Of a DNA stretch of 20,030 bases, positions 777 through 17,943 are shown in pieces (position 1 is the stretch's first letter; every line of letters starts with the position of its first letter). The notes beneath the pieces were generated by a model, which had not been told where the DNA came from, searched no databases, and saw nothing but the letters and a program-made list of their open reading frames with translations. This DNA is from a virus. A program made the translations under genes and the position numbers. The stretch is from IMG/VR virus record IMGVR_UViG_3300021975_000006, positions 1 through 20,030 of that record; one strand, given 5' to 3'.

Positions 777-840
777 AAGCTTCTCTTAAATTATCATATG
801 ATATAATTACATTACAACAAATAAATATAAAGGGTACAAA
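777..840 (+). promoter_or_regulatory. Promoter-leader cassette, copy 1
   Basis: AAGC at 777-780 is followed after 18 nt by the extended -10 TGATATAAT (799-807), which runs into ATTACATTAC (806-815). The leader ends in the ribosome binding site AAAGGGTACAAA directly before ATG 841. The same arrangement, with identical AAGC-to-TG spacing, is found before the genes at 4494, 9729 and 10819. The -10 matches a sigma-70-type extended -10 element. The role of AAGC and of the ATTACATTAC block is unknown. Confidence 0.7.
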
Positions 841-2439
841 ATGGAATACATAAGATTAACTTTCGGCGTAGAATTAGAAAACGGATTTGATTTCAGAACT
901 ATAAACATAAAAAGAGGCGAGAGCCTAGAATCTGCTACTGATAGATTGGTATCACAACTAAATGCAGAAACTGAAAAAATGGGTCAACCTGCTTTATTAG
1001 AAACTCCAACATTTCAAGAAGCAAATGACAAGGAAGAACACGAGAGACTAACAAACGAGTCAAACGAAATGAACACAGAGGAAGCAGAAAAAGAGGAAAT
1101 AAAACCAATGAAAACACTTAATAAGGTTATTAACTTAATGAACACAACAGAGACACAAACAAAAGAGATAGATAGACTAAAAGCTATTATTGAACAACAG
1201 GAACAAGACTTAAAAGAGTTTAGAGAAATTCAAAAGATTTTAGGACTTAATACAGATGTAAATACCCCTGAAACAAAAGCAGAAGCTTTAATTATCCCAA
1301 GTGTGGAAACAGTTATTGAAGCTCCTGAAACTCCATTTAATGCGATATTAGAAGAGGACAATGTAAGTATTGAACCAAGCTATAACCCTTTTAGTGATGA
1401 AGCCTTACAAGCATTAGATAATGAACATGAAGAGCTAACAAACCCATTTGATGAAGAGCCAAGCGATGAGCTAGAAATAAATGAGATATTCCCACCACTA
1501 GAAACAGTGGAGGCAGAAGAAACAGGAGAGCCAAAAAGCTTAAATGAACTAATAGATTTACTAAAAGAAGATGAAGTACCGACCGAGCAGGAAGAGCCAA
1601 AAGTTGAAACAGCCCCAAGTATGCTTAGAAAAGAGATTGAACAGAATAAAGAAATAGAGCAAGATACTAAAGATTATACTATTAATCCTAAAGATATTTT
1701 CATAGATAGATTGATACCAACCATTGAAAAGGCTGATAAAAAAGCGTACTTAATAGAGGAGATTCTAAACAAAGAACTTAACCCAATAAATGAAAATAAT
1801 TTGATGATAAAAGCCCCTCAAATGAAAGAAATAAAAAATGAGTATAGCAAACTCTCAAAACTTCTTAACCGTGCCACTACGAACAAACTAAAAGAAAAGC
1901 TAAACATCTCTAAAACTTTTACAATAGATAGTATCCCCACTAGAGCAATAGCTTTAAAGTGTATGAGAGAAATCAATTATATATTAGAGTATGGAGAGTT
2001 AGCAGATAGAGCAGGAAAAGAGGTAAACCACCTTATAGATTCAACCCCTAATGAAGCCCAAGAAATAGAGGGTATAGAGCCAAAAAGCAACCAAAAAGCC
2101 CCTAAGGTTCAAACCCCTCTTAGTGAACAATTAATATCTTATCTTTTAAATACACAAATAGAGCCAAATGAGGCATTAAAAAAAGAGATACATGATATTG
2201 ATGAAATTACCCTTATAACAATGTTTAAAAAAATGGTCAAAAATGACTTAAAATCAATCTTTGAGAACCAAAGAAACAATCTGATTAAGAATAAAGATAT
2301 GCACAGAATATATATAGAACATGGCAGAAATGGAGATAATACTTTACAAACTAGAAGAGGATTAGAATTCTTTTACAATCAAATATTTGATTTAATGGGG
2401 TTTGATGGGGAGATTAGAAAAATTGTAGAGGAGATTTAA
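841..2439 (+). CDS. Large acidic coiled-coil protein of unknown function in the replication region
   Basis: A 532-residue protein I do not recognise. Residues 1-45 (MEYIRLTFGV... ESATDRLVSQL) look like a small folded domain. About 60-90 is highly acidic and polar. About 95-133 (ETQTKEIDRLKAIIEQQEQDLKEF) is a predicted coiled coil. About 140-265 is acidic, rich in Glu and Pro and probably disordered, with two NPF-centred short segments (182-184 and 201-203). From about 280 the sequence becomes helical and balanced in charge (FIDRLIPTIEKADKKAYLIE, then NYILEYGELADRAGKEVNHL), with a C-terminal helical segment ending at GFDGEIRKIVEEI. No Walker, zinc or nuclease motif is visible. It lies between recombination and helicase genes under its own cassette promoter, so a role in DNA replication or recombination, or as a scaffold for those proteins, is a guess from context. 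ATG 841 is fixed by the AAAGGG site just upstream. Confidence 0.8.
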   Translation: MEYIRLTFGVELENGFDFRTINIKRGESLESATDRLVSQLNAETEKMGQPALLETPTFQEANDKEEHERLTNESNEMNTEEAEKEEIKPMKTLNKVINLMNTTETQTKEIDRLKAIIEQQEQDLKEFREIQKILGLNTDVNTPETKAEALIIPSVETVIEAPETPFNAILEEDNVSIEPSYNPFSDEALQALDNEHEELTNPFDEEPSDELEINEIFPPLETVEAEETGEPKSLNELIDLLKEDEVPTEQEEPKVETAPSMLRKEIEQNKEIEQDTKDYTINPKDIFIDRLIPTIEKADKKAYLIEEILNKELNPINENNLMIKAPQMKEIKNEYSKLSKLLNRATTNKLKEKLNISKTFTIDSIPTRAIALKCMREINYILEYGELADRAGKEVNHLIDSTPNEAQEIEGIEPKSNQKAPKVQTPLSEQLISYLLNTQIEPNEALKKEIHDIDEITLITMFKKMVKNDLKSIFENQRNNLIKNKDMHRIYIEHGRNGDNTLQTRRGLEFFYNQIFDLMGFDGEIRKIVEEI

Positions 2440-2581
2440 AAACCTCGCCCCCCTATATTTTAAGGATACAAAACATTCAAAAGAAAAGGGGAGACAGGAG
2501 TAAGTTTTAATTGTGGATACTTGAAACTTTATCCTATCCCCCCTTATAAAACATTTAAAAATTACAAAAGGATAAAAAAAA
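2440..2581 (+). other. Intergenic leader of the helicase gene with an orphan ribosome-binding-site cassette
   Basis: This 142-base gap holds no convincing gene. At 2458-2477 it contains TTTTAAGGATACAAAACATT, nearly the same leader that precedes the primase start (TTTTAAAGGATACAAAAA then ATG), but here no ATG follows. An ATT codon at 2475 would open only eleven codons. The real helicase leader is further on, with AAAAGGAT a few bases before ATG 2582. A TATAAA box at about 2546-2551 could be a weak -10, but the ATTACATTAC block is absent. The orphan leader looks like the relic of a deleted small gene. Confidence 0.45.
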
Positions 2582-4312
2582 ATGAACTCAATACTAGAGA
2601 TTATACCACGCGACCACCAAGCCGAGCTTATAGAGGACACTATAAATACTAATGAAAAGATAATAACCATCAAACTAATAACAGGTGGTGGGAAAACTTT
2701 ATTTTTTTACCTGCTCTCATTAATCCACATGCAGGATAAAAAATTCCTATTCACAACCCCACAAATTAACCTAACACACCAAACAGCACAAGAACAAAGC
2801 CACCATGTGGGAATATTACAAGGTAGCATCAGCAAAGACCTACACAAAAGAATAGTTATAGCAACTATTCATACCGTAATAAATAGAGGTATCAATACAA
2901 ATAAATTCAACTTAAAACAATTTGATTGGATTGTTATAGATGAAGCACATTTACAAAAACCGAAAGTGCAAAAAATCTTAGATAACCTAGCATCACACCA
3001 AAGAGTCATTTTATTATCTGCTACACCATACGACAGTAAAAAAGGAACTTATCTATCATACGCAGATAAATTTATACTTGGTACAAAATATGATTGGCAG
3101 TACATGAGAGAACGCAATTATCTTTGCCCTATAGATTATCATGTTACTAATACTTTGGAAACAAAAGGTATTAAAAGAAATAAAGAGGGTGATTTTAACG
3201 ATAAGGAACTAACTAAAGCAATAAAAGATAGTGGTATAGACATAGTTAATACCTCACTTCAAAAAATCAACCGTGCCTTACCTACTGTAGTAGTCGCCCA
3301 AAATATAGAGTTTGCCGATGAGCTAACAAAACAGTACAAAGAGGAGGGTTTTCGAGTTCGTGCTATTCACTCCAAAATGGAAGGGGAGAGCCAAACCGAA
3401 CTAATAGAAGCTCTTAAAAAAGGTAAACTAGACATGCTAGTAGCCGTAAACATGCTTAAAACGGGCGTGGATATAAAACACTTAGGCAACATAGTATTAG
3501 CCACCAAATTAGGCTCTATAAACGATTATATTCAAACATACGGAAGAGGGGCGAGAGTTGACCCACGCAAAGACAAATGTATATTCATAGACATTTTTAA
3601 CACGCTAGAAGAACACGGACACCCCGAAGAGTTCAAACCAAAAGAAGAGGAAGAACAAAAAGAGAAAAAGAAACGAACTCCTAAAAAATGCCCTTGTGGT
3701 TCAACTGAATTTGAAACCATATTTAAAGCAGGTTTAGTTATATCTAAATGCGTAGAGTGTGGAGAAGAGGACGAGAAGCCAAACAATAAAGTTTTAGAGT
3801 GTCCAAAATGTCATTGGGTAGGCAAAAGCTATACAAAAAGACTAAACGGACAAGACATCAACGCACATTGCCCAGAGTGTAACACTTTTATAAAAACAGT
3901 AGAGCAGGTATTACCACGAGAACTAATCCTTATTAGAGCAAGTGGCGAGAGATTACAAAAGGAATTAAAAGTAAATATCACTCTATCAGAAGAGGAATTA
4001 AAACAATTAGCCGTGTTTGGTTCAGAGCAACAATTAGAATATGTGCTAAACCTCAAAAAACGAGGGGTTAGCCCTGCCAGTAAAAAGCTAGTAGAAAACA
4101 GAGTACAAGGCTTTTTACGAACCATACCACACGCCAATAAACAAATAGCCCATTTGTTAGAGTACGATAAGGAAGCAATAGATTTAGCCTTTAATCTCAT
4201 AAATACCAACCCTAACGCCCACATAGGAAGAGTAATAAACAAACTCAAACGCCGTAAAAAGCAAAAGCCCTTGACCTATATCAAGAGTTATATAAACTTT
4301 TTAAGTAAGTAA
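2582..4312 (+). CDS. SF2 DEAH-box helicase with two C-terminal zinc ribbons
   Basis: A 576-residue superfamily 2 helicase. RDHQ (10-13) is a Q-like motif; LITGGGKT (32-39) is Walker A; VIDEAH (118-123) is motif II with DEAH at 120-123; LSATPY (145-150) is motif III. The second RecA-like domain has MLKTGVDI (291-298) as motif V and QTYGRGAR (318-325) as motif VI with the arginine finger. A charged linker (350-368) leads to two four-cysteine modules: Cys370, 372, 390, 393 and Cys407, 410, 430, 433. A basic helical tail follows (550-576). All catalytic residues are intact. It lies directly upstream of the primase, so it is probably the phage's replicative or origin-opening helicase. SF2 phage helicases of this size with a primase beside them are common; the double zinc ribbon is a less usual extension. 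Start ATG 2582 follows AAAAGGAT at proper spacing. Confidence 0.9.
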   Translation: MNSILEIIPRDHQAELIEDTINTNEKIITIKLITGGGKTLFFYLLSLIHMQDKKFLFTTPQINLTHQTAQEQSHHVGILQGSISKDLHKRIVIATIHTVINRGINTNKFNLKQFDWIVIDEAHLQKPKVQKILDNLASHQRVILLSATPYDSKKGTYLSYADKFILGTKYDWQYMRERNYLCPIDYHVTNTLETKGIKRNKEGDFNDKELTKAIKDSGIDIVNTSLQKINRALPTVVVAQNIEFADELTKQYKEEGFRVRAIHSKMEGESQTELIEALKKGKLDMLVAVNMLKTGVDIKHLGNIVLATKLGSINDYIQTYGRGARVDPRKDKCIFIDIFNTLEEHGHPEEFKPKEEEEQKEKKKRTPKKCPCGSTEFETIFKAGLVISKCVECGEEDEKPNNKVLECPKCHWVGKSYTKRLNGQDINAHCPECNTFIKTVEQVLPRELILIRASGERLQKELKVNITLSEEELKQLAVFGSEQQLEYVLNLKKRGVSPASKKLVENRVQGFLRTIPHANKQIAHLLEYDKEAIDLAFNLINTNPNAHIGRVINKLKRRKKQKPLTYIKSYINFLSK

Positions 4313-4330
4313 TTACCACATAAAACATTA

Positions 4331-4350
4331 AGCAGGTTTAAACCCCTGCT
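4331..4350 (+). terminator. Hairpin after the helicase gene, possible weak terminator
   Basis: AGCAGG (4331-4336) pairs with CCTGCT (4345-4350) around an eight-base loop, 18 bases after the helicase stop. No T run follows, so termination may be weak or factor-dependent. It divides the helicase unit from the cassette promoter of the primase. Confidence 0.35.
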
Positions 4351-4412
4351 ACCTTAACCCCTAAATATCAACATCTTATACACTCCTCTATCAAATCAAA
4401 ATAAATATAAAT

Positions 4413-4493
4413 TATAAGTTTCCTTTTTTATAAGCAAAGAATAATTATACCTATGCTATTATTACATTACATAACTTTTAAAGGATACAAAAA
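4413..4493 (+). promoter_or_regulatory. Promoter-leader cassette, copy 2
   Basis: A T-rich stretch bounded by TATAAG and TATAAGC (4413-4435) ends in AAGC at 4432-4435. After 18 nt comes TGCTATTAT (4454-4462) fused to ATTACATTACA (4461-4471). The leader carries AAAGGATACAAA before ATG 4494. Spacing and sequence match the copies upstream of 841, 9729 and 10819. The TATAAGTTTCCT start of this element also recurs at 10604. Confidence 0.7.
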
Positions 4494-5600
4494 ATGTACT
4501 TAAAATACACAGCCCCAACAAATCACAAATTTTACAATTACCTCATAAACCAAAGAGGGATAACCCCACAAGAGATAGAAGAATACCAAATAGGCTTTGC
4601 AGGGGATTTTTTAGAAGAAAAAAACAAATTAAGAGACTATAGAGGTAACCAAATGATAGCATTTAGAAAAGATAAAAGGGGTCAATTCGCCCCTATCTTC
4701 TCAAATCGTGTTATGTTCCCTATTATGAACATAGAGGGGAAAATAATCGCATGGAGTGGGAGAAGCTTAGACCCTAAGCAGCCGAAATATTTCAATAGTG
4801 CAGAGAGTAGATTATTTAACAAATCCCAAAGCTTCTTTGGCTTAAATGTTTTTCTAAATAAAAAAAATAGAAAAAAAATAATAATAGTAGAGGGACAAAT
4901 TGATGCTATAAAAGCTAACCGATACGCCCCATCACTTGCCCCTATGGGGAAATTTACTAAAACCCACGCTAAAACACTAAGAGGGTTAGGGGTTAAAGAG
5001 GCTTTAATTGTAGGCGATAATGATAAAGCAGGGAGAGAATTCACACGACAGGCAATCAAGTATTGTTTAGAGTGTGATATATTACCAAAGGTAGGCAAGT
5101 TAAAAAAAGAATTTAACGATTTTGGAGAAACTAGCAATCAAAAGTTTAGCGATATTGTAGAAGTCCAAGACCTATATACATATTTAAAAAGTATTATAAG
5201 TTTTATTCAAAATAAAAAAGAGTTCGGATATACAAATCAATACTATGATTTTATAAACGAGTTCCCTACCCTCTCTTTTTTATCAGTCCAAGAAGCCAAA
5301 AAACTATACTTATTGGGACAAGAGGTAAAAGGCGAGTTACAAGCCACTATAACAAATAAGTACTATAGCTTAATTTTTAACTCCACTTTTTCAGATAAAA
5401 AATACAGAACAGAAAATACAAATATAGAGGGGTTGACTTTGGATAGATTAGGTTTTACAGTCCATCATTTCATACCCGTTATATATGAAGATGAGAACAG
5501 AAAAGCATATTATGACCTTAGAAGTAAGAAAGAAATTGATTTATCAAAAGAAGAAAAAGAGAGAATAAGAAAGATAGCTAAATTTTTAAGCCCATCATGA
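4494..5600 (+). CDS. TOPRIM-domain DNA primase (DnaG-like) without an N-terminal zinc ribbon
   Basis: A 368-residue protein resembling the catalytic core of DnaG-type primases, which make RNA primers for lagging-strand synthesis. Residues 1-100 match the N-terminal subdomain of the RNA polymerase core: YLINQRGITPQEIEEYQIGFAG (16-37), then IMNIEGKIIAWSGR (77-90) and PKYFNSAES (97-105). The TOPRIM fold follows: VEGQIDAIK (132-140) with the catalytic Glu133, VGDNDKAG (173-180) with the Asp175-x-Asp177 metal pair, and a third acidic segment KEFNDFGE (205-212). Residues 220-368 are helical and not recognised. The CHC2-type zinc ribbon found at the start of most DnaG proteins is absent; the start is well fixed by the leader, so this is not a mis-called start. 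The neighbouring helicase carries two zinc ribbons. The stop codon TGA overlaps a downstream promoter. Confidence 0.88.
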   Translation: MYLKYTAPTNHKFYNYLINQRGITPQEIEEYQIGFAGDFLEEKNKLRDYRGNQMIAFRKDKRGQFAPIFSNRVMFPIMNIEGKIIAWSGRSLDPKQPKYFNSAESRLFNKSQSFFGLNVFLNKKNRKKIIIVEGQIDAIKANRYAPSLAPMGKFTKTHAKTLRGLGVKEALIVGDNDKAGREFTRQAIKYCLECDILPKVGKLKKEFNDFGETSNQKFSDIVEVQDLYTYLKSIISFIQNKKEFGYTNQYYDFINEFPTLSFLSVQEAKKLYLLGQEVKGELQATITNKYYSLIFNSTFSDKKYRTENTNIEGLTLDRLGFTVHHFIPVIYEDENRKAYYDLRSKKEIDLSKEEKERIRKIAKFLSPS

Positions 5601-5626
5601 TATAATTCTAATAGGGTTTACTAAAC
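5598..5626 (+). promoter_or_regulatory. First promoter of the structural block, with a downstream dyad
   Basis: TGATATAAT at 5598-5606 is a consensus extended -10 element that overlaps the primase stop codon TGA (5598-5600). Ten bases downstream, around and just past the expected start point, GTTTACTAAAC (5616-5626) forms a near-perfect dyad (five-base arms, one central base) that could be an operator. The next gene starts at 5687. Confidence 0.6.
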
Positions 5627-5642
5627 ATTTCCCTTCCTTTAC

Positions 5643-5684
5643 CTAAAACCTTTTTTGTGATATAATTTGCAAAAAAGGTTTTAG
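5643..5684 (+). promoter_or_regulatory. Second promoter of the structural block, inside a perfect 15-bp inverted repeat
   Basis: CTAAAACCTTTTTTG (5643-5657) and CAAAAAAGGTTTTAG (5670-5684) are exact reverse complements. The 12-base centre holds the extended -10 TGATATAAT (5658-5666). The right arm supplies AAGG upstream of ATG 5687, only about eight bases away. The structure could be an operator clamping the promoter, a stem exposing the -10 on single-stranded DNA, or, in transcripts from the promoter at 5598, a hairpin that hides the ribosome binding site of the next gene. It lacks a T run for an intrinsic terminator. Confidence 0.65.
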
Positions 5685-5686
5685 TG

Positions 5687-5863
5687 ATGCGAAAATTAAC
5701 AAAGCTTATCGACACTTTAAAAGAAAAGTTCCCTGATAAAATCCCAACTAACCAACTGATAACAGAACGAGATATATCTTTTTTACAAGGACAGCAAAAT
5801 ATAATTAGCTATATAGTCCAATATCAAAAAGAGCTAATCCAAAAAGAACAGGGTAAAAAATGA
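5687..5863 (+). CDS. Small protein of unknown function just upstream of the portal gene
   Basis: A 58-codon gene starting MRKLTKLIDTLKEKFPDK and ending IQKEQGKK. Its stop TGA overlaps the portal ATG in an ATGA junction (5860-5863), strong evidence that it is translated and coupled to the portal gene. AAGG in the right arm of the upstream dyad serves as ribosome binding site. The protein is charged and mostly helical; the segment DISFLQGQQNIISYIVQ (29-45) looks amphipathic. Many podoviruses place a small helical protein directly before the portal, but I cannot assign this one to a named family. It may act in portal assembly or packaging; that is inference from position only. Confidence 0.72.
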   Translation: MRKLTKLIDTLKEKFPDKIPTNQLITERDISFLQGQQNIISYIVQYQKELIQKEQGKK

Positions 5864-7341
5864 ATATCCAATATAACGCCCTATCCACAGACCGACAAAG
5901 ATATATAGATATAACTAAAGAGTTAGAGCTATACACTTTTAACATACTAAGAGACTCGAAAACACAAGGTAGTCACCCCATAAGACACCAATCCCTAGGA
6001 GCTGATTTAATCGCCTCACTATCCTCTAAACTTTTAAAATCCGTTTTCCCTTTTGGCTATCGCTTCTTTACTCTAAGCGTGGATAACCCACCACAAGACC
6101 AAAAAAAAGAAGATGAGATAACAGATATACTAATCTCATTAGAAAAAGAGATAGGCAAAGAAGCCAACAAAGGAATATTAAGAGGTTTTCTTATTGGTGC
6201 AATGGAACACTTACTAATTAGTGGGAACGCCTTGATAGACTTTACAGGGGATAAGCCAAATATGTATAGTCTAGACGAGTATGTAATTGCTAGGAGAGAA
6301 ACAGGAGATTGGCACACAATAATAATCAAAAAAGAAATTGTGGTATTACCTGATGACAAAAGCGTATATGTAAAATATTTGGAGCAATTAGGAAGCTATA
6401 CCAATGAACAGGACTACAGACTAGAGAAAGAGTATCATCATGATTTTTATATCCAATACAGAAGAAAAGAAAATGATATAGTAGAGGTCACCGAATGGTT
6501 AGAAGAGATTGAAGTAGTGGAGCAAAAGAGGGAAATAGCATTTAAAAAACTAAACCTCTACCCTATCCGACTATATGAAGAGGCAGGATATAATTATAGT
6601 TACGGATATGCCTATAGATATATAGGAGATTTGAGAGCCTATGACATAGAAAGAAAAGCACTAAGCGAAAACATAATCGAGGGTTCAAAGCTTTTACACT
6701 TAGTTAACCCTCAATCTAACACGGCTGATAATATCAAGGAAATACAGGATGCTAAAAACGGCGATTTTATCGTAGGACATGAGGGCGATATAACCCCTTA
6801 TGGTGGGGCAGATTTTAGGAATATCCAATTTCAAGACCAAATACTAGACAAGAAAGAAAGAAACCTATCCATATCTTTTTTAAGGGGTACAGGCGTAGTT
6901 AAGCAGGGTCAACAAACAGCTTATGAGATACAAACGCTAATTAATGAAATGATGGAGAAATTCGGAGGGTTTTTTATTACCATATCCGAGAGCCTGCAAA
7001 AACCAACCTTTAATTTTTTACTAAGCAAACTAAAAATAGAAAAAGAATTAAAAGGTGTCAATGTAGAATTTATGAACGGAGTAACTCAACTAAGAGACGC
7101 TGAAACATTCCAAGCACTCCAACAAATCGCACCGTTAGAACTCCTTTATCAAAGTGGAGCAGTAACCCAAGCGATAAGCACAGAAAAAGTTATTTCTCTC
7201 TATTGTGAAACTATAGGGATAGATAAACGAGATATTCTAAAAGATGAGGAGGAAATACAGGCAGAAGAGCAAACAAAGGTGAACCAACAGTTAATGGCAA
7301 ACGCAGGGGCAGGACAACCCCCACAGCAACCCCAACAATAA
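5860..7341 (+). CDS. Portal protein (T7 gp8-like head-to-tail connector)
   Basis: A 493-residue portal of the podovirus head-tail connector family; T7 gp8 has 536 residues. The portal ring is the single vertex through which DNA is packaged and ejected and the platform for the tail. Visible landmarks are the N-terminal HQSLGADLIASLSSKLLKSVFPF (43-65), corresponding to the family's helical region followed by an F-P turn, and YGYAYRYIGDLRAYDIERKA with a following SKLLHLVNP, which closely matches the T7-like pattern of a Y-x-x-G-D-L-R helix and K-V-x-x-L-V-N-P strand. The segment NGDFIVGHEGDITPYG matches the next family motif (GDFVxGxxxDI). The C-terminus is a Gln/Pro tail. ATG 5860 overlaps the previous stop. 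The stop is followed at once by AAAGGA, the site for the next gene, so the block 5687-9360 is one operon. Confidence 0.92.
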   Translation: MNIQYNALSTDRQRYIDITKELELYTFNILRDSKTQGSHPIRHQSLGADLIASLSSKLLKSVFPFGYRFFTLSVDNPPQDQKKEDEITDILISLEKEIGKEANKGILRGFLIGAMEHLLISGNALIDFTGDKPNMYSLDEYVIARRETGDWHTIIIKKEIVVLPDDKSVYVKYLEQLGSYTNEQDYRLEKEYHHDFYIQYRRKENDIVEVTEWLEEIEVVEQKREIAFKKLNLYPIRLYEEAGYNYSYGYAYRYIGDLRAYDIERKALSENIIEGSKLLHLVNPQSNTADNIKEIQDAKNGDFIVGHEGDITPYGGADFRNIQFQDQILDKKERNLSISFLRGTGVVKQGQQTAYEIQTLINEMMEKFGGFFITISESLQKPTFNFLLSKLKIEKELKGVNVEFMNGVTQLRDAETFQALQQIAPLELLYQSGAVTQAISTEKVISLYCETIGIDKRDILKDEEEIQAEEQTKVNQQLMANAGAGQPPQQPQQ

Positions 7342-7350
7342 AGGAATAAA

Positions 7351-7668
7351 ATGAATAAAACATACACAGATAATCAATTAAAAAAGATGACCAAAGAAGA
7401 GCTAATCAATGTCATTAAGGGCTTAACAATTAAAGCCCCAAACACAAATATACCAATGGCAAATACAGGTATAGTATCCGACTCTAAAGAGTTTTATGAG
7501 CGACAAAATCCACGCCAAATTACACCACAAGAGCCAATCAAACAAGCCCCATCAATAAAAGAGGAAACATTATTGCAAGAGAAATCTTTTAATGTAGTGG
7601 ACAGTAAAGACAACAAAGAGAACGAACAGAAAGCAAATATAAATAAAGGGGCTGAAAAATGGCAGTAA
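7351..7668 (+). CDS. Small hydrophilic protein of unknown function after the portal
   Basis: A 105-residue protein. Residues 1-28 (YTDNQLKKMTKEELINVIKGL) resemble the two-helix SAP/Rho-N/LEM-like motif often found at the ends of phage structural proteins, with the typical L-x-x-M-T-x-x-E-L pattern. The rest (30-105) is polar, rich in Gln, Asn, Lys and Glu, and probably disordered. The start is preceded by AAAGGA that overlaps the portal stop; the last codons overlap the start of the next gene by ten bases. In this position a minor virion or assembly factor is likely, but no function can be assigned. Confidence 0.75.
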   Translation: MNKTYTDNQLKKMTKEELINVIKGLTIKAPNTNIPMANTGIVSDSKEFYERQNPRQITPQEPIKQAPSIKEETLLQEKSFNVVDSKDNKENEQKANINKGAEKWQ

Positions 7669-7862
7669 CAATTAAAGATAGTTGCCTATTGGTATATCAA
7701 TCTCCACGATATGGTGGTAACTTACAATGTCCTAACGATGGTGGTATAAGTGGTTCAGGTGGTAGCACTACCCTACCCCTAAATAAAACAAAATTTGAGC
7801 CTAACGGTTGCCGAAAAGTTGACCGTGAGTTTAATTGTAAAATAAAATTGTATAGGGGATAA
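7659..7862 (+). CDS. Small cysteine-containing glycine-rich protein, unknown function
   Basis: A 67-residue protein with four cysteines (Cys9, 24, 51 and 60) and a flexible central GGISGSGGST segment. The spacing does not match a standard zinc finger. The ends are strand-like (VTIKDSCLLVYQSP; EFNCKIKLYRG). It overlaps the preceding gene by ten bases and has AAAGGGG about ten bases before its ATG; the next gene begins one base after its stop. The tight spacing on both sides supports real expression. It might be a small head decoration or cement protein, but nothing in the sequence proves it. Confidence 0.68.
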   Translation: MAVTIKDSCLLVYQSPRYGGNLQCPNDGGISGSGGSTTLPLNKTKFEPNGCRKVDREFNCKIKLYRG

Positions 7863-7863
7863 T

Positions 7864-8073
7864 ATGGCAAAGAGTGAAACAATAATATTAGATAGTGAAG
7901 AGGTTTATCAAAACAGAGGGGCGAAGCATAGAAGCGAAGCCCAATTTATGGATAAAAAATCTCTCCATATCATGGTAAGACAGTTAAAAAATCAAGGTAA
8001 AGAAGTCGAAGAGATAGCTATAGAATTAGGCTTATCAAACGACGAAGCAAACAAACTATATAAGGAAGTATAA
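7864..8073 (+). CDS. Small protein with a C-terminal helix-turn-helix-like segment
   Basis: A 69-residue protein. Residues about 37-69 (MVRQLKNQGKEVEEIAIELGLSNDEANKLYKEV) have the spacing of a simple helix-turn-helix: helix, G-K-E-x-x-E-I-A turn, then a recognition-like helix beginning GLSNDEANKLY. The N-terminal half is polar. GGGGAT precedes the ATG by a few bases. It sits between portal and scaffold genes, where some phages have small head-assembly proteins; DNA binding in packaging is possible. The acidic nature of the putative recognition helix argues for caution. Confidence 0.68.
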   Translation: MAKSETIILDSEEVYQNRGAKHRSEAQFMDKKSLHIMVRQLKNQGKEVEEIAIELGLSNDEANKLYKEV

Positions 8074-8076
8074 AAA

Positions 8077-8853
8077 ATGGCAGATAATCAAACACCACCA
8101 AACACCCCACCAAGTGGAGATACTCCACCACCAAACAATCAAACACCACCAAACACCCCACCAACACCACAAGATGGACTAACGCCACCTGCTACACCAA
8201 ACACACCACAACCCAACGAATGGGAAGCCCAATTAAAAGAAGCACAGCAACAAATAGACCAACTAAAACAAGAAGCATTTAATTATAAAAATGACTTCTT
8301 AAAGACTAAAGAAGAGTTATTAAAAGCCCAAAACCCACAAAAAAGCCTAAGCGAGATGGTAGCAGAGAAACTAGATAATAAGTTACCAATAGATTATGAG
8401 GAGTTCCAAAAACTGGGGTACACCTCTGAAATGGTGGATATAATCAAAGGCAGTATTGAGACAACACGCACAGCAAAAGAACAGGCGAAGGAATTGGCAA
8501 TCTTAGAAGCTCAAAATTACTTAGGGGAAAATAAGCAAGAGGTATTGAACTTTACTAATGAGTTTTTCAATTCTGATAACTTTTCAGAGCAAGAGAAACA
8601 AGATATTCAAAAGCTAGGAGATACTAACCCCCTTTTAATCGCAAAACTATCAAAGGTATTACACGAGTCATACACAGCTACACAATCTCAAAATATGATA
8701 ACTAACCCTTTTACTAGCCGTATGTCAAGCTCTAATGATGTATTCAAAAGCGAAGCAGAGCTAAGAGAAGCAATGAGAAGCCCACAGTTTACAACTGATA
8801 AGAATTATAGAGCCTCTATCATATCAAAAATGAACCGTTCAAAATTGGGGTAA
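8077..8853 (+). CDS. Capsid assembly scaffolding protein (T7 gp9-like by position and character)
   Basis: A 258-residue acidic, helical protein between the portal and the major capsid gene. Residues 1-45 are a Pro/Thr/Asn repeat region (NQTPPNTPP twice). Residues about 48-85 form a Gln/Lys/Glu-rich coiled coil (EAQLKEAQQQIDQLKQEAFNY). The middle is helical with several KLGxxxPL-type segments, and the C-terminus is basic (FTTDKNYRASIISKMNRSKLG), as is usual for scaffolds whose basic tail contacts the capsid protein. T7 gp9 is 307 residues, so the size fits. Scaffolds diverge quickly, so the call rests on position, composition and the basic tail. AAGGAAG precedes the ATG. The major capsid gene would normally follow next, but here it is displaced by about 2.7 kb. 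Confidence 0.75.
   Translation: MADNQTPPNTPPSGDTPPPNNQTPPNTPPTPQDGLTPPATPNTPQPNEWEAQLKEAQQQIDQLKQEAFNYKNDFLKTKEELLKAQNPQKSLSEMVAEKLDNKLPIDYEEFQKLGYTSEMVDIIKGSIETTRTAKEQAKELAILEAQNYLGENKQEVLNFTNEFFNSDNFSEQEKQDIQKLGDTNPLLIAKLSKVLHESYTATQSQNMITNPFTSRMSSSNDVFKSEAELREAMRSPQFTTDKNYRASIISKMNRSKLG
8086..8164 (+). repeat. 28-bp direct repeat encoding the Pro-rich N-terminus of the scaffold protein
   Basis: An identical 28-base unit occurs at 8086-8113 and 8137-8164, offset by 51 bases (17 codons). It encodes NQTPPNTPP in both copies, and related CCACC-rich sequence fills the gap and the following bases. The repeats keep the frame, so copy number could vary without breaking the protein. Confidence 0.85.
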
Positions 8854-8856
8854 CAT

Positions 8857-9360
8857 ATGCACAAAGTAGCAAAGAGGAGAATAAAACTATCAAAGGAACA
8901 ACAGGCTACTATATGCGACCTATATAAACAAGGATACGCCAAAAAAGACATAAGAGAGATAGTAGGGGTTAGTGATTTATGGATAACTAGAGTCTTAATT
9001 TCAGAATATGGAGATTACGAAACTCTCCCTATTTCTGATAGACTTTCATTGCGTATCATAACAGAATTTTCAAAACATAAAAATATTGACAAAGTCCAAG
9101 AAGTTGTAAGGCTGAATAAAAAAAGGATAAGCCGACATATCATAGACAAAATAAAGCCATCAATACAATTTAATAGCGATATAATCATATACTATAAACA
9201 AGGCTTTAGCGTATCGGACATAATGAAGTATTCTACCTATTCAGAAACTCAAATAAGAGCATTTATAGCCAATCATAATAGGACAAATAACGACAAAAGA
9301 ACAGATAATGAAAACAAAGGGATTAACCCTATGTTTCTTAATAGGGGATTAAGATATTAA
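8857..9360 (+). CDS. Protein with probably three tandem helix-turn-helix units
   Basis: A 167-residue basic protein. Unit 1 (about 12-48) is SKEQQATICDLYKQGYAKK with DIREIVGVSDLWITRVL, a resolvase or homeodomain-like helix-turn-helix with the usual Y-x-x-G-x-x-x-x-x-I-A-x-x-x-G-V-S pattern. Unit 2 (about 60-95) is IITEFSKHKNIDKVQEVVRL then NKKRISRHI. Unit 3 (about 106-137) is DIIIYYKQGFSVSDIMKYST then YSETQIRAFI. The tail is polar. It begins three bases after the scaffold stop and is followed by a strong terminator, so it is the last gene of the first structural operon. Its position suggests a role in packaging, for example as a small-terminase-like DNA recogniser, or as a late regulator. Neither can be proven here. 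Confidence 0.75.
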   Translation: MHKVAKRRIKLSKEQQATICDLYKQGYAKKDIREIVGVSDLWITRVLISEYGDYETLPISDRLSLRIITEFSKHKNIDKVQEVVRLNKKRISRHIIDKIKPSIQFNSDIIIYYKQGFSVSDIMKYSTYSETQIRAFIANHNRTNNDKRTDNENKGINPMFLNRGLRY

Positions 9361-9374
9361 TCTGTATAATCCTA

Positions 9375-9428
9375 TTGGGCATTTTTTATATTCCCCATAT
9401 AAAAAAAATCGCCCAACTCTCTTTTTTT
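9375..9428 (+). terminator. Strong intrinsic terminator closing the portal-scaffold operon
   Basis: TTGGGC (9375-9380) pairs with GCCCAA (9411-9416). Inside it ATTTTTTATAT pairs with ATATAAAAAAAAT around a short loop near TCCCC. The stem is followed by CTCTCTTTTTTT. It lies 14 bases after the stop codon of the preceding gene. Confidence 0.85.
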
Positions 9429-9668
9429 CGGATATGTGATAGATAATTTCCTTAATATTTAAACAAAGTCTATAAAGTTACTTTGCAAAAAACTCCCCTG
9501 AAAACCTTAATGAAAAAGAGAGTATAATACCTTGTCTTTTTAAAGGCAAATAAAAAACACATCTATACATTACATATCTGCATAACCATGTTTGTATCAT
9601 GTGTATATAAGGTTTATAAGTTATCTCTCTTAACTCTAATAGGACATTATAAACCTTTCTTTTTTATA
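9429..9668. other. Gene-free stretch with several small dyads and a possible promoter
   Basis: No convincing gene was seen between the terminator and the KilA-N gene; the longest frame (43 codons from ATG 9588) has no ribosome binding site and runs into the promoter of the next gene. Visible signals are AAAGTTACTTT (9474-9484), a dyad with five-base arms; AGTATAAT (9521-9528), a possible -10; CATG-x7-CATG around 9587-9601; and the inverted repeat at 9611-9655. The density of dyads suits a regulator-binding control region. Confidence 0.45.
9611..9668 (+). terminator. Long stem-loop followed by a T-rich tract upstream of the KilA-N promoter
   Basis: GGTTTATAA (9611-9619) and TTATAAACC (9647-9655) are exact reverse complements separated by 27 bases. 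Inside the loop GTTA (9620-9623) and TAAC (9631-9634) can pair as well. The T-rich sequence TTTCTTTTTTAT follows the right arm, as in an intrinsic terminator. It could equally be part of the control region of the next gene, since it abuts the promoter cassette. Confidence 0.4.
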
Positions 9669-9728
9669 AAGCCCCTCTTAATAATCCTTATGCTATCATT
9701 ACATTACAATTTAATTTAAAGGATTACA
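9669..9728 (+). promoter_or_regulatory. Promoter-leader cassette, copy 3
   Basis: AAGC at 9669-9672, 18 nt, then TGCTATCAT (9691-9699) fused to ATTACATTACA (9698-9708), then TTTAAAGGATTACA directly before ATG 9729. The bases from AAAGC to the -10 also resemble copy 1, with CTCTTAA in both spacers at the same place. Confidence 0.7.
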
Positions 9729-10559
9729 ATGAAAACAAATCAATTGATGAATGTACGCTTAGGCGTTTTCGGTACAGTGGAAATTTTTCACAAAACACAA
9801 ATAGGAAAAGTTTCTGACATTATGGCTATTGGCAATCTACAAAGAGAGCTAAAAGGGTTAAGACCTATAAAGATAGATGAGATTTTAAGAACTCAATCCT
9901 TTTGGGAGTTTGTAGTTTCTTGTCATAATGCAGGATTAGGGGTTAATTCTAATTACGGGGAATTCCCGTATTTAAAAAATAGTGATAATTCTAATTCCCC
10001 TGATACAGGGGAATTAAAAAATAGTGATAATTCTAATTACGGGGAAACCCCCACAATTAAAATTGACTTTGATAGTATAAAAGATAATAAAGGTAGAATT
10101 GAATACTCAAAACTAATAAACAAATTCCCTCATTTAATTCAATCTAAAAAGGGGCGTTATGGTGGTACATATATGCACCTATATTTATTATTAGAAGTTG
10201 CTACAAGATTAGATAGTGATTTAAAAGTAGAGATTTATAAAACATTTGTAGAGGGTAAAATACTTGAACACCGTGATAATGGTGGAGAAGCATTTAAACG
10301 ATTAAATAAAGCTATTGATACCTTACCTGATAGGCAACCCCATTTGAAACCTAAAGGTAATAAAGGCGTATATATTAACATCTCTAAAATGATTAGAGAG
10401 AAATTATCAATTATTGATACTAAGGGGTATAATGAAGAAGAACATAACGAGATAGTGCAAAAGAAAAGAGATGAGTATATTAAGAAACTTATCTCTTTTA
10501 TTGAAATGGGGTTTATTATCTCTTATCCACAGTTAAAAGAAACTATCAAGAGACTTTAG
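9729..10559 (+). CDS. KilA-N domain protein
   Basis: A 276-residue protein with a KilA-N DNA-binding domain, common in phage antirepressors and host-takeover proteins. The domain is seen at about 138-195: QSKKGRYGGTYMHLYLLLEV, ATRLDSDLKVEIYKTF and HRDNGGEAFKRLN, which match the family's G-R-x-G-G-T, L-x-L-x-x-E-x-A and final R-D-x-G helices. Residues 1-68 form an unrecognised N-terminal domain (about 57-69 FWEFVVSCHNAGL) that may hold the rest of the domain. Residues 73-111 are three copies of a 14-residue Asn/Ser-rich repeat (NSNYGE... LKNSD). A helical C-terminal domain follows (220-276). It stands alone between a terminator and its own cassette promoter, followed by another terminator. A regulatory role at the lysis-lysogeny decision is inferred from the family; start ATG 9729 is fixed by AAAGGATTACA. 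Confidence 0.85.
   Translation: MKTNQLMNVRLGVFGTVEIFHKTQIGKVSDIMAIGNLQRELKGLRPIKIDEILRTQSFWEFVVSCHNAGLGVNSNYGEFPYLKNSDNSNSPDTGELKNSDNSNYGETPTIKIDFDSIKDNKGRIEYSKLINKFPHLIQSKKGRYGGTYMHLYLLLEVATRLDSDLKVEIYKTFVEGKILEHRDNGGEAFKRLNKAIDTLPDRQPHLKPKGNKGVYINISKMIREKLSIIDTKGYNEEEHNEIVQKKRDEYIKKLISFIEMGFIISYPQLKETIKRL
9944..10051 (+). repeat. Three 42-bp tandem units with internal dyads, inside the KilA-N gene
   Basis: TAATTCTAATT begins at 9944, 9986 and 10028, an exact 42-base period (14 codons). Each unit contains a G-run/C-run inverted repeat: TACGGG (9954-9959) with CCCGTA (9965-9970); TAATTCCCC (9992-10000) with GGGGAATTA (10008-10016), perfect with a seven-base loop; and GGGG (10041-10044) with CCCC (10048-10051). 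The first and third units share TAATTCTAATTACGGGGAA; units 1 and 2 share the A-rich ends. The coding frame is preserved. Confidence 0.85.
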
Positions 10560-10603
10560 AAGATATGATAAAAACTATAGGGGATTAAATTCCCTCATGC
10601 TAA

Positions 10604-10657
10604 TATAAGTTTCCTCTACTTTTTTATAAGCTTCTAACTATTTAAAAAAACATATCA
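10604..10657 (+). promoter_or_regulatory. Decayed copy of the promoter cassette after the KilA-N gene
   Basis: TATAAGTTTCCT (10604-10615) and TTTTTTATAAGC (ending 10631) match the upstream half of cassette copy 2. AAGC ends at 10631, and TATCAA lies at 10653-10658, exactly where the -10 should be, but TG is replaced by AC and the ATTACATTAC block is missing. It probably no longer works as a promoter. Confidence 0.5.
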
Positions 10658-10682
10658 AAATAAACCCCTAAATTTGGGGCTT

Positions 10683-10717
10683 CCTTATAAAATGGATATT
10701 TTATAAGGTTTATTTTT
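10683..10717 (+). terminator. Intrinsic terminator after the KilA-N gene
   Basis: CCTTATAAAAT (10683-10693) pairs perfectly with ATTTTATAAGG (10698-10708) around the loop GGAT, followed by TTTATTTTT (10709-10717). The stem is AT-rich but eleven base pairs long. Confidence 0.72.
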
Positions 10718-10757
10718 AGCTACCTTAAAATTCAGTTCACCAATTATATTTGCTACA

Positions 10758-10818
10758 AAGCACACTTTAGTATTTCTTATGCTATCATTACATTACATTT
10801 TATTTAAAGGATACAAAG
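10758..10818 (+). promoter_or_regulatory. Promoter-leader cassette, copy 4
   Basis: AAGC at 10758-10761, 18 nt, TGCTATCAT (10780-10788) fused to ATTACATTACA (10787-10797), then TTTAAAGGATACAAAG before ATG 10819. From the -10 to the start codon it is almost identical to copy 3. Confidence 0.7.
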
Positions 10819-11442
10819 ATGAAACAATTAGCAATCAACAATCAAACAATCAGTTTAAAAGTAGAGAATGGTAAAGCCTTTGCTACATCATTGGATATTG
10901 CAAAAGTATTTAATAAGAGACATGATAATGTTATTAGAAAAATTAAGGCATTAGAGGGCTTTAATGATTATTTTAACCTCCTCAAAATTGAGGAGGTTAA
11001 ATATATAGATAAAAAAGGTGAAAAACGCCCAATGTATAAACTAGATAGAGATATTTTTATATTGGTGGTATCTAAACTAACAGGTGGAAAAGCCGAAAGA
11101 TACATTTATGAGTTTATCCAAGCTTTTAACCTATTAGAAGAGGAATATTTTAAAACTCAAAAAACTTTAACAGCTGATAACGACAAAGATTTAGTGCTAG
11201 AGCATACACTACCCTTTGACCCAAAGAATACGATTAGTAAAGTAAACGGTTTGAAGCGTGATAAACTTGTTAAGAGTTATTACAGAAGTAAAAACGGTAA
11301 AGAGCTTAGAGCATTAGATAGTGCTATAGCAGAGCTTAAGACTTCTTTGTTTGGTTGGGACGAGGATATGCTAATAGAGCTTATTGATAGAAGAAATGAA
11401 TTAGTATCACAGAGAAACGAGTTTATAGCCCTTATTTCTTAA
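10819..11442 (+). CDS. Rha-family phage regulatory protein
   Basis: A 207-residue protein with the Rha domain at about 18-105. FATSLDIAKVFNKRHDNVIR (21-40) matches the family's helix-turn-helix start (S-x-x-I-A-x-x-x-x-x-x-H-x-x-V-x-R-x-I). YIDKKGEKRPMYKLDRD (62-78) and LTGGKAERYIYEFIQAFN (87-104) match the following conserved Y-x-D-x-x-G and T-G-x-K-A motifs. Rha proteins occur in many temperate phages and interfere with growth when host IHF is absent in the P22-like prototype. The C-terminal half (125-207) is helical and not recognised; it may be an effector domain. The gene has its own cassette promoter. A perfect 14-bp dyad lies inside it (10972-11001). The start is fixed by AAAGGATACAAAG just upstream. 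Confidence 0.85.
   Translation: MKQLAINNQTISLKVENGKAFATSLDIAKVFNKRHDNVIRKIKALEGFNDYFNLLKIEEVKYIDKKGEKRPMYKLDRDIFILVVSKLTGGKAERYIYEFIQAFNLLEEEYFKTQKTLTADNDKDLVLEHTLPFDPKNTISKVNGLKRDKLVKSYYRSKNGKELRALDSAIAELKTSLFGWDEDMLIELIDRRNELVSQRNEFIALIS
10972..11001. repeat. Perfect 14-bp inverted repeat inside the Rha gene
   Basis: TTTAACCTCCTCAA (10972-10985) and TTGAGGAGGTTAAA (10988-11001) are exact reverse complements with two bases between them. It encodes FNLLKIEEVK within the Rha domain. The right arm contains AGGAGG, a strong ribosome-binding-site-like sequence, but no ATG follows at working distance. Possible roles are an operator for autoregulation or a hairpin in the mRNA. Confidence 0.8.
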
Positions 11443-11448
11443 TATAGA

Positions 11449-11471
11449 TAGCCTATATCTCCTATAGGCTA
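11449..11471 (+). terminator. Hairpin after the Rha gene
   Basis: TAGCCTATA (11449-11457) pairs perfectly with TATAGGCTA (11463-11471) around TCTCC, seven bases after the Rha stop. The following sequence is CAAAAATCGTTTTAG, so the T run is late and short. Position favours a terminator; strength is uncertain. Confidence 0.5.
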
Positions 11472-11515
11472 CAAAAATCGTTTTAGTAAATTTAAACCAC
11501 CTTACCCTTTTTAAA

Positions 11516-11548
11516 TGCTATGATTGGCTATATATTTTAACAATGGAG
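11516..11548 (+). promoter_or_regulatory. Promoter and ribosome binding site of the major capsid gene
   Basis: TGCTATGAT (11516-11524) is an extended -10 close to those of the cassettes (TGCTATCAT), but the ATTACATTAC block is missing. AAAC instead of AAGC ends 19 bases upstream. GGAG at 11545-11548 stands eight bases before ATG 11557 and decides the start. Confidence 0.6.
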
Positions 11549-11556
11549 TTAAACAC

Positions 11557-16056: not shown

Positions 16057-17943
16057 ATGGCTACCTATGTGACAGACCAACAACTACAACAAGCCTTACA
16101 GGACTACATAAAGAAAGACCACATAAAAGATAGTGTGGCAGATAGTGGGGGGGATAATGATTATGTAGTAGGAGAGCAGGGACTTATCCAAAAGTTTAAT
16201 CAGGTTAATTATCCTACTGATTTAAAAGAGTGCCTTGAAGAGTTTGACAATATGTATCTAGGGTACAAAGCAACACACCCAACCCAAGATATAAACGGTC
16301 ACGCTCTTAGCCAAGGTCTTTTATACTTCAACACTACAGACAAGCAACTATATGTATATGATGGTTCAAATTGGGGGCGTACTGTAGGAGTCCCAACTTC
16401 TTATACTCCACCACTAGAAAAAAAGCAGTTTGAAATAGAAACTACAACAGCAACAGATACAGTTATAGTTAATGAAGAATACGACCCAACGACCATAACG
16501 GTTTTCTTAAATGGTGTTCGTATGCAATCAGGGGATTACTCATTACAGGCAGACAATAAAAGTATTAAGTTCACAAGCGACTTAGCCGTAAACGATTTAG
16601 TTAGTGGTTCATGGCTCAAAGAGGACACTACTACAACGGCTATTGTCACAGAGTATGACAAGATAGAGAACGCACCAAACCCTGCTACTAATGGCGTTAT
16701 TGGTTGGGATAGAAGCCGTTCAAGCTTCTTTTTTTATTCTGCTACCAATGGGGGATGGATTGGCAAAAGAGAAAATAACTCTATCAAATTTTATGATAGT
16801 AAAGATGAGTTTGAAGACGAGACACTAGCAACCCTAGACACCTTATATGTTGATAGAAGTAAAAAAGAGTTTTATCTGTTTGATGGAACGGTATATAAGC
16901 AATGGGGTGTAAGCTTCTCTATTCCAAAGCCTACAATAGGTTCAGAGCAAACTTTATATATAAATATAGCTAGTAGAAAAATAGAGGCATGGAATGGTAC
17001 AAGCTATGATACTATTGTAAATGGCAATGACCCAATACAAACAAAGCCAAGCGTTGGAGATTTCATTTATACAGGCAGAGAACAAATCTTTATTGCCGAA
17101 GATACAAACAAAGCCTATACATGGGACGGAAATAATTTTATAGAGTTAGCTTCAAGTGGTGTCGGTGGTGTGGCTAAGGTTTCAGATACTACAGGGGTAA
17201 ATAGTGAGAATACTCTTTTTTATATCCCTACAAATGGTAAAATGTATTATTTAGATGGTGGCGAAATCAAACGAGCTAATAAAGAGATTTGGAGAATATC
17301 AAATGATAGCGACCTCTTAGCAAATGCCATCCGTGATGAGGATTTTATCTATTTGATAGATGATACAAACACACTTAAAAAGTGGGATAACGCGACTAAC
17401 AGATTTGAAACTTTAGGAACTCCAAAAGTTACGCATGTATTCGCAAAAGATAGTAGTATAGCTTATGTTGTAGATTACCCAAGCAGAGCAGAAGCAGAAA
17501 CCTACATTGCGAATATCGGTACTACAGACTGTATTTTATGGGGTAACTTTACAGATAGTAATGCTAATACTACAAAATGGGCTTATTCTATTGATAGCGA
17601 CGGGAAGGCAGTATTATTATATTATGCAGAAGTTACAACAATTAACGGCTATGCCATCAGCGACCAAGACCAAGTGGTAGTAAATGATATTTTAAAAGTT
17701 GAGGTATTAGCAGGTAATAATATAACCGTTAAAGATGGTGGGGGAAATACTCTAAGCTTTACGGATAAAACATCAAACGGCAACATCTCGGACGGTACAG
17801 GCGATTTGAGACTATATATCAATGGTATAAAAGTTCCTGCTAAGTTCGTATCATTGAATAATAACGAATTGACAGCAGATGTTAGTAAGATATTATCAAA
17901 CAGCACTATATACCAAAATACATTTATAGAAATAGCAAAATAA
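16057..17943 (+). CDS. Tail fibre protein with repeated beta blades
   Basis: A 628-residue protein. Residues 67-110 (YLGYKATHPTQDINGHALSQ then GLLYFNTTDKQLYVYDGSNW) match the widespread tail-fibre motif 'L-G-x-x-x-x-x-P-x-x-D-x-x-G-x-x-L-x-x-G-x-L-Y-x-N-T'. Residues 122-190 hold the F-x-x-x-x-x-x-T-x-x-x-V...TVFLNGVRMQSGDYSL motif of fibre spacer domains. About 255-460 repeats a unit of roughly 35-45 residues: TLYVDRSKKEFYLFDG, TLYINIASRKIEAWNG, FIAEDTNKAYTWDG, LFYIPTNGKMYYLDGG, FIYLIDDTNTLKKWD. The C-terminal end (about 555-628) resembles the end of the next protein. AAAGGAG gives strong initiation. It should bind host receptors or link receptor-binding parts. A run of seven G lies at codons 31-32. 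Confidence 0.8.
   Translation: MATYVTDQQLQQALQDYIKKDHIKDSVADSGGDNDYVVGEQGLIQKFNQVNYPTDLKECLEEFDNMYLGYKATHPTQDINGHALSQGLLYFNTTDKQLYVYDGSNWGRTVGVPTSYTPPLEKKQFEIETTTATDTVIVNEEYDPTTITVFLNGVRMQSGDYSLQADNKSIKFTSDLAVNDLVSGSWLKEDTTTTAIVTEYDKIENAPNPATNGVIGWDRSRSSFFFYSATNGGWIGKRENNSIKFYDSKDEFEDETLATLDTLYVDRSKKEFYLFDGTVYKQWGVSFSIPKPTIGSEQTLYINIASRKIEAWNGTSYDTIVNGNDPIQTKPSVGDFIYTGREQIFIAEDTNKAYTWDGNNFIELASSGVGGVAKVSDTTGVNSENTLFYIPTNGKMYYLDGGEIKRANKEIWRISNDSDLLANAIRDEDFIYLIDDTNTLKKWDNATNRFETLGTPKVTHVFAKDSSIAYVVDYPSRAEAETYIANIGTTDCILWGNFTDSNANTTKWAYSIDSDGKAVLLYYAEVTTINGYAISDQDQVVVNDILKVEVLAGNNITVKDGGGNTLSFTDKTSNGNISDGTGDLRLYINGIKVPAKFVSLNNNELTADVSKILSNSTIYQNTFIEIAK
16147..16153 (+). repeat. Seven-G homopolymer near the start of the fibre gene
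   Basis: GGGGGGG at 16147-16153 covers codons 31-32 and the first base of codon 33. Gain or loss of one G would shift the frame and truncate the fibre. Poly-G tracts drive phase variation in Campylobacter and Helicobacter, though usually with eight or more G. Confidence 0.6.

Follow-up and report, generated by a model that had tools for sequence, protein, structure and literature searches.

The window, that is, the whole stretch of DNA analyzed here, is a virus fragment of 20,030 bases with a G+C content of 34%. On the + strand it carries, from the left, genes for a YqaJ-type exonuclease, a 532-aa protein, a helicase, a DnaG-type primase, a small ORF and the portal, followed by small ORFs, the scaffold, an HTH protein, a KilA-N protein and a Rha protein and, at the right end, by the major capsid, two tail tubular proteins and fibre-like proteins (tail and fibre names were taken from gene order and relatives). 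The phage is little known and podovirus-like, with T7-like structural genes. Two findings make a host in the Campylobacterota likely: of 297 plasmid records with Rha relatives, 243 are from Campylobacter, and Helicobacter phage primases are among those that the window's primase resembles. The primase (4494–5600) starts at the DNAG_N domain, without the N-terminal region of the Helicobacter phage enzymes, and several CxxC pairs lie toward the C-terminus of the neighboring helicase (2582–4312). Rfam and tRNA scans of the window gave no match, and consensus promoter and terminator scans did no better than on shuffles.

Four genes are each preceded by a cassette composed of an AAGC element, an extended −10, a start-site block and a leader with a ribosome-binding site (RBS). 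All features, including a hairpin or inverted repeat found before three of the cassettes, lie on the + strand:

752–775, +, AT-rich hairpin before cassette 1, possible exonuclease-gene terminator by inferred function (z −3.0)
777–780, +, AAGC element, cassette 1
799–807, +, extended −10 TGATATAAT, cassette 1
808–816, +, start-site block TACATTACA, cassette 1, predicted +1 near 814
829–838, +, leader/RBS AAAGGGTACA, cassette 1
841–2439, +, gene served 1, 532-aa protein with no Pfam or PHROG match
4432–4435, +, AAGC element, cassette 2
4454–4462, +, extended −10 TGCTATTAT, cassette 2
4463–4471, +, start-site block TACATTACA, cassette 2, predicted +1 near 4469
4480–4489, +, leader/RBS AAAGGATACA, cassette 2
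4494–5600, +, gene served 2, DnaG-type primase
9609–9658, +, inverted repeat then T-run before cassette 3, possible terminator or operator (z −1.65, weak)
9669–9672, +, AAGC element, cassette 3
9691–9699, +, extended −10 TGCTATCAT, cassette 3
9700–9708, +, start-site block TACATTACA, cassette 3, predicted +1 near 9706
9718–9728, +, leader/RBS AAAGGATTACA, cassette 3
9729–10559, +, gene served 3, KilA-N domain protein (23.4 bits, just below the Pfam cut-off of 23.8)
10683–10708, +, inverted repeat before cassette 4, possible terminator (z −1.7, weak)
10758–10761, +, AAGC element, cassette 4
10780–10788, +, extended −10 TGCTATCAT, cassette 4
10789–10797, +, start-site block TACATTACA, cassette 4, predicted +1 near 10795
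10806–10815, +, leader/RBS AAAGGATACA, cassette 4
10819–11442, +, gene served 4, Rha family regulatory protein

An earlier, sequence-only reading of this DNA had described AAGC elements at a fixed distance before these genes, and their end positions and spacing are borne out: AAGC sits 21 nt before the −10 hexamer in all four cassettes, and TGnTATnAT begins exactly 18 nt past it, at 799, 4454, 9691 and 10780. The same reading had named the products as primase, KilA-N and Rha, as we confirm, while the gene at 841 has no family match. Its conserved block, given as ATTACATTAC, is real but shares two bases with the end of the −10 hexamer, which leaves TACATTACA as the extra part. This part directly follows TATnAT, is identical in the four copies, covers −6 to +3 relative to the predicted start point, and contains neither a palindrome nor an inverted repeat. 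A TGnTATAAT-like −10, intergenic and at a suitable distance from the start codon, is found in every copy, and 8 to 12 nt after each block the short AT-rich leader gives way to AAAGGRT(T)ACA and then the start codon.

The full pattern, AAGC-N18-TGnTATnAT-TACATTACA, occurs four times in the window and 0 times in 100 dinucleotide shuffles; a scan inside genes, which the earlier reading had named as a critical check, also found 0. Without the block, AAGC-N18-TGnTATnAT is still present four times on the + strand and 0 times on the − strand (shuffle mean 0.02), and a search with TATGNTATNATTACATTAC returned four exact matches and none further at 3 mismatches (expected 0.26). The leader AAAGGR(A)T(T)ACA is likewise present four times, only at these genes (shuffle mean 0.56, largest 3), and the window holds no copy of the block away from a promoter. 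The exact 19-mer pattern is present once each in only 6 other IMG/VR contigs, which we estimate to be about the chance level for 17 fixed bases at that collection size. Further cassettes may be missing, as the record is only a 20-kb fragment.

Such a repeat could be alike by descent rather than by function, the cassettes having been copied recently together with their genes in a moron-like spread. The KilA-N and Rha genes, located between the scaffold and capsid genes, do look inserted, since relatives have other genes at that place; moreover, a 60-nt stretch is 78% alike between copies 3 and 4, and leaders 2 and 4 are 78% alike in register, the two sharing more of the leader because of AAAGGATACAAA at the same register. 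However, whole-cassette copying should leave the spacers alike too. Identity among the four copies is at chance level over the 40 nt ahead of the cassette (0.39, expected 0.35, P 0.10) and over the leader downstream of the block (0.41, expected 0.36, P 0.11), and slightly above chance in the 16-nt spacer (0.44, expected 0.32, P 0.009), whereas AAGC and TACATTACA are 100% identical. A distant relative also has AAGC-N18-TGATATAAT. We therefore regard recent whole-cassette copying, which the earlier reading had offered as an option, as rather unlikely; blocks held under constraint, not freshly copied, are the better reading, judged from four copies only.

TGnTATnAT is found at seven sites on the + strand, every one preceding a gene. 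Four have the block and three do not, in agreement with the earlier claim that the portal and capsid promoters lack it:

5598–5606, +, block-free extended −10 ahead of the portal operon, overlapping the primase stop codon
5658–5666, +, block-free extended −10 ahead of the portal operon, within the loop of a strong palindrome
11516–11524, +, block-free extended −10 ahead of the major capsid gene

By sequence, there are thus two promoter classes, one for replication and regulatory genes and the other for virion genes. The palindrome (5643–5684) has a long stem (fold z −7.0) with the extended −10 in its loop, and its 3′ arm contains the RBS, AAAAAAGG, of the first ORF of the portal operon (ATG 5687). 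As judged from the letters, read-through RNA would hide this start, while RNA from the loop promoter would not, a setup that resembles certain T4 late genes, e and I-TevI among them.

Searching IMG/VR with the capsid protein yielded three relatives and a capsid alignment a fourth, with capsids 80–83% identical. No relatives came from a capsid search of genome contigs or from single-protein searches of IMG/VR with portal, primase and Rha, a DNA-level search of phage records returned nothing, and 0 of the 58 loci in a primase alignment share the structural genes. One relative (L080, genome G004) is near-complete at 43 kb: its capsid protein is 82% identical, its exonuclease, helicase and primase have 33–39% identity to those of the window, and terminase, internal virion protein and amidase genes are present. 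In this genome, AAAGGA(A)TACA occurs at six gene starts and nowhere else, five of which show a −10, four bases, and then TTATA or TTACA, one of the five being displayed a base out of register; TTACTG abuts the −10 at three of those promoters, and TTACTGT is also seen in other intergenic regions. Apart from a rough match to TACATTACA at position 34478 of G004 (TACATTTA), the block is not kept in relatives. L077 and L092 have TTGACA-N17-TATAAT, four bases, and then TTATA or TTATC, and L092 has AAGC-N18-TGATATAAT before a KilA-N gene that is followed, in an operon, by primase. The more distant L093 repeats a different start-region sequence, TATAATTTGAAATATCAAAA, at two genes. At the level of sequence, the plan common to the relatives is a −10, four bases, a TTAYA-like start, AAAGGA(A)TACA and the start codon, and the letters are phage-specific. 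As to AAGC before TGnTATnAT as a general phage feature, the 28 usable sites are too few to judge; a raw count over 93 TGnTATAAT sites, which includes genes and GC-rich contigs, gives a hint of AAGC 17–18 nt upstream.

Three further observations concern these genomes. The scaffold–capsid stretch (8857–11556 in the window, a gap in L077–L080) varies in content and length, like an insertion hotspot. In L093, TGTATAATTTGAAATATCAAAA is repeated before two genes (4421 and 4807), and upstream of one of them lies a perfect 24-bp palindrome, CAGTTTATTAAATTTAATAAACTG. In L077 (upstream of 2336) and L079 (upstream of 1286), TATAAT lies only ~8 nt before the ATG of the related small pre-portal gene, which may have a leaderless transcript.

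The polymerase that reads the cassettes could be a phage-encoded, T7-like single-subunit enzyme. T7-type promoters are ~20 nt long and repeated, and the structural genes of the window are T7-like. No T7-type polymerase was found, however, in the 43-kb G004, using a search that was positive in Lau218 and in a faecal podovirus, nor was one present in the 20-kb fragment, outside which the other half of the genome lies. In addition, the cassettes have a clean sigma-70 −10 that varies at tolerant positions, and the virion genes, the usual targets of such polymerases, lack the motif. We thus consider a phage polymerase highly improbable. The two variable positions in TATGnTATnAT are among those that sigma-70 reads least, and the earlier view that the −10 is normal for host sigma-70 holds, as it is an ordinary extended −10. 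Given this −10 and the lack of a T7-type polymerase in G004, the host polymerase very probably reads these promoters.

We next considered whether sigma-70 could account for the whole cassette, as an ordinary strong host promoter with a favored start and leader and no trans-acting factor: AAGC would be a Campylobacter-type −35 substitute, TTACA a preferred start and AAAGGATACA a strong ribosome-binding leader. An extended −10 without a clear −35 is the norm in Campylobacter jejuni and Helicobacter pylori (PMC3656092). The AAGT of the weak C. jejuni −35 motif TTTAAGTnTT, which aids promoter strength, would lie ~22 nt before the −10, beside AAGC at 21 (PMC3824568), and TTAYA is found at the same register in several phages. 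On the other hand, TACA at −6 to −3 is identical in the four copies and varies in relatives, an identity that sigma-70 does not need; the −35 motif is good only in L092 and partial in copy 1; and AAGC and the block are both missing from this phage's portal and capsid promoters. Compared by eye, ~19 nt from the −10, TTTAAGTnTT matches at 3 to 6 of its 8 fixed letters in the window and at 7 of 8 in L092, and AAGC as a counterpart of AAGT, a poor match in copies 2 to 4, is only a lead. Ordinary promoters are therefore a possible explanation, yet a less probable one. The statement that block and AAGC are not explained by sigma-70 was nevertheless too strong: the start-site block and the AAGC spacing are real, but the block lies on the expected start, where relatives keep a TTAYA-like sequence in register, and AAGC is close to the C. 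jejuni AAGT site, with a weak match in three of the four copies. Alternatively, the conserved 5′ end and leader could act in the RNA, in translation or mRNA stability rather than transcription. The leader AAAGGA(A)TACA is common to different phages, and the start-associated repeats (SAS) of mycobacteriophages are thought to act in translation (PMC3203893), but transcription from the expected start would leave about two-thirds of the block, its upstream portion, outside the RNA, which makes this very unlikely.

Since sigma-70 alone needs no identical letters over −6 to +3, an added constraint is likely, and an operator for a phage regulator would be the simplest one on TACATTACA. We thus propose, giving it roughly even chances, that the cassettes form one class of four early sigma-70 promoters whose start-site block is a candidate operator for one trans-acting factor. 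In this model, host sigma-70 RNA polymerase would read all four promoters, which would fire early, a timing judged from gene content alone, and would each drive a transcription unit of its own, for primase, a replication-side gene or one of two regulatory genes. TACATTACA would exert phage-specific control, most likely as an operator that covers −6 to +3 and through which one trans-acting factor would set the four promoters together, the portal and capsid operons using block-free promoters. Block and regulator would change together between phages, such that each relative would have its own version of the block. An extended form, an early regulon whose start-site operator is swapped wholesale between phages, like immunity specificity, with KilA-N or Rha as regulator, seems unlikely, and binding of KilA-N or Rha to the block is speculation.

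Regulation has been little studied in podovirus-like phages of Campylobacter-type hosts, and promoters that form a defined class and whose start points can be tested offer a concrete entry into the timing of their genes, in a setting of T7-like capsid genes and apparently no T7-type polymerase. If a regulator does bind the block, this would provide a simple test of the function of the Rha and KilA-N proteins. The four promoters, together with the plan of the relatives, suggest that control is shared through a small system, similar in kind to systems known from other phages.

Several known systems share features with the cassettes. T7-type promoters are also short and repeated, in a phage with T7-like structural genes, but the near-complete relative lacks the polymerase and the window has a sigma-70 −10. 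Moron units, like KilA-N and Rha, have their own promoters and are placed among late structural genes; here, promoters are present, location varies in relatives and terminators are weak, and the promoter class, unlike that of morons, also serves core replication genes. Promoters of Campylobacterota, as in C. jejuni with its extended −10 and no clear −35 (PMC3656092), share TGnTATnAT and the lack of an Escherichia coli-type −35, and their −35-like motif lies near the position of AAGC, whereas their consensus has no identical TACATTACA over the start, and the host is only likely to belong to this group. A further comparison is with Cluster K mycobacteriophages, in which ESAS, a repeated 46–47 bp sequence with a host-type promoter, is coupled to SAS upstream of non-structural genes at scattered places; the regulator there is unknown (PMC3203893, PMC11373665). 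Both systems combine a repeated intergenic promoter having a host-sigma type −10 with a start-associated leader before scattered non-structural genes, and both vary in sequence between subgroups or relatives. They differ in letters and host, and ESAS has an inverted repeat of 15–17 bp, whereas the block has none; the 13-bp SAS, GGGATAGGAGCCC, is absent before the window's gene starts, its one 2-mismatch match lying inside a gene at 16706. Taken together, the comparison suggests that the cassettes work like ESAS/SAS without belonging to them, as a kind of system that is already known.
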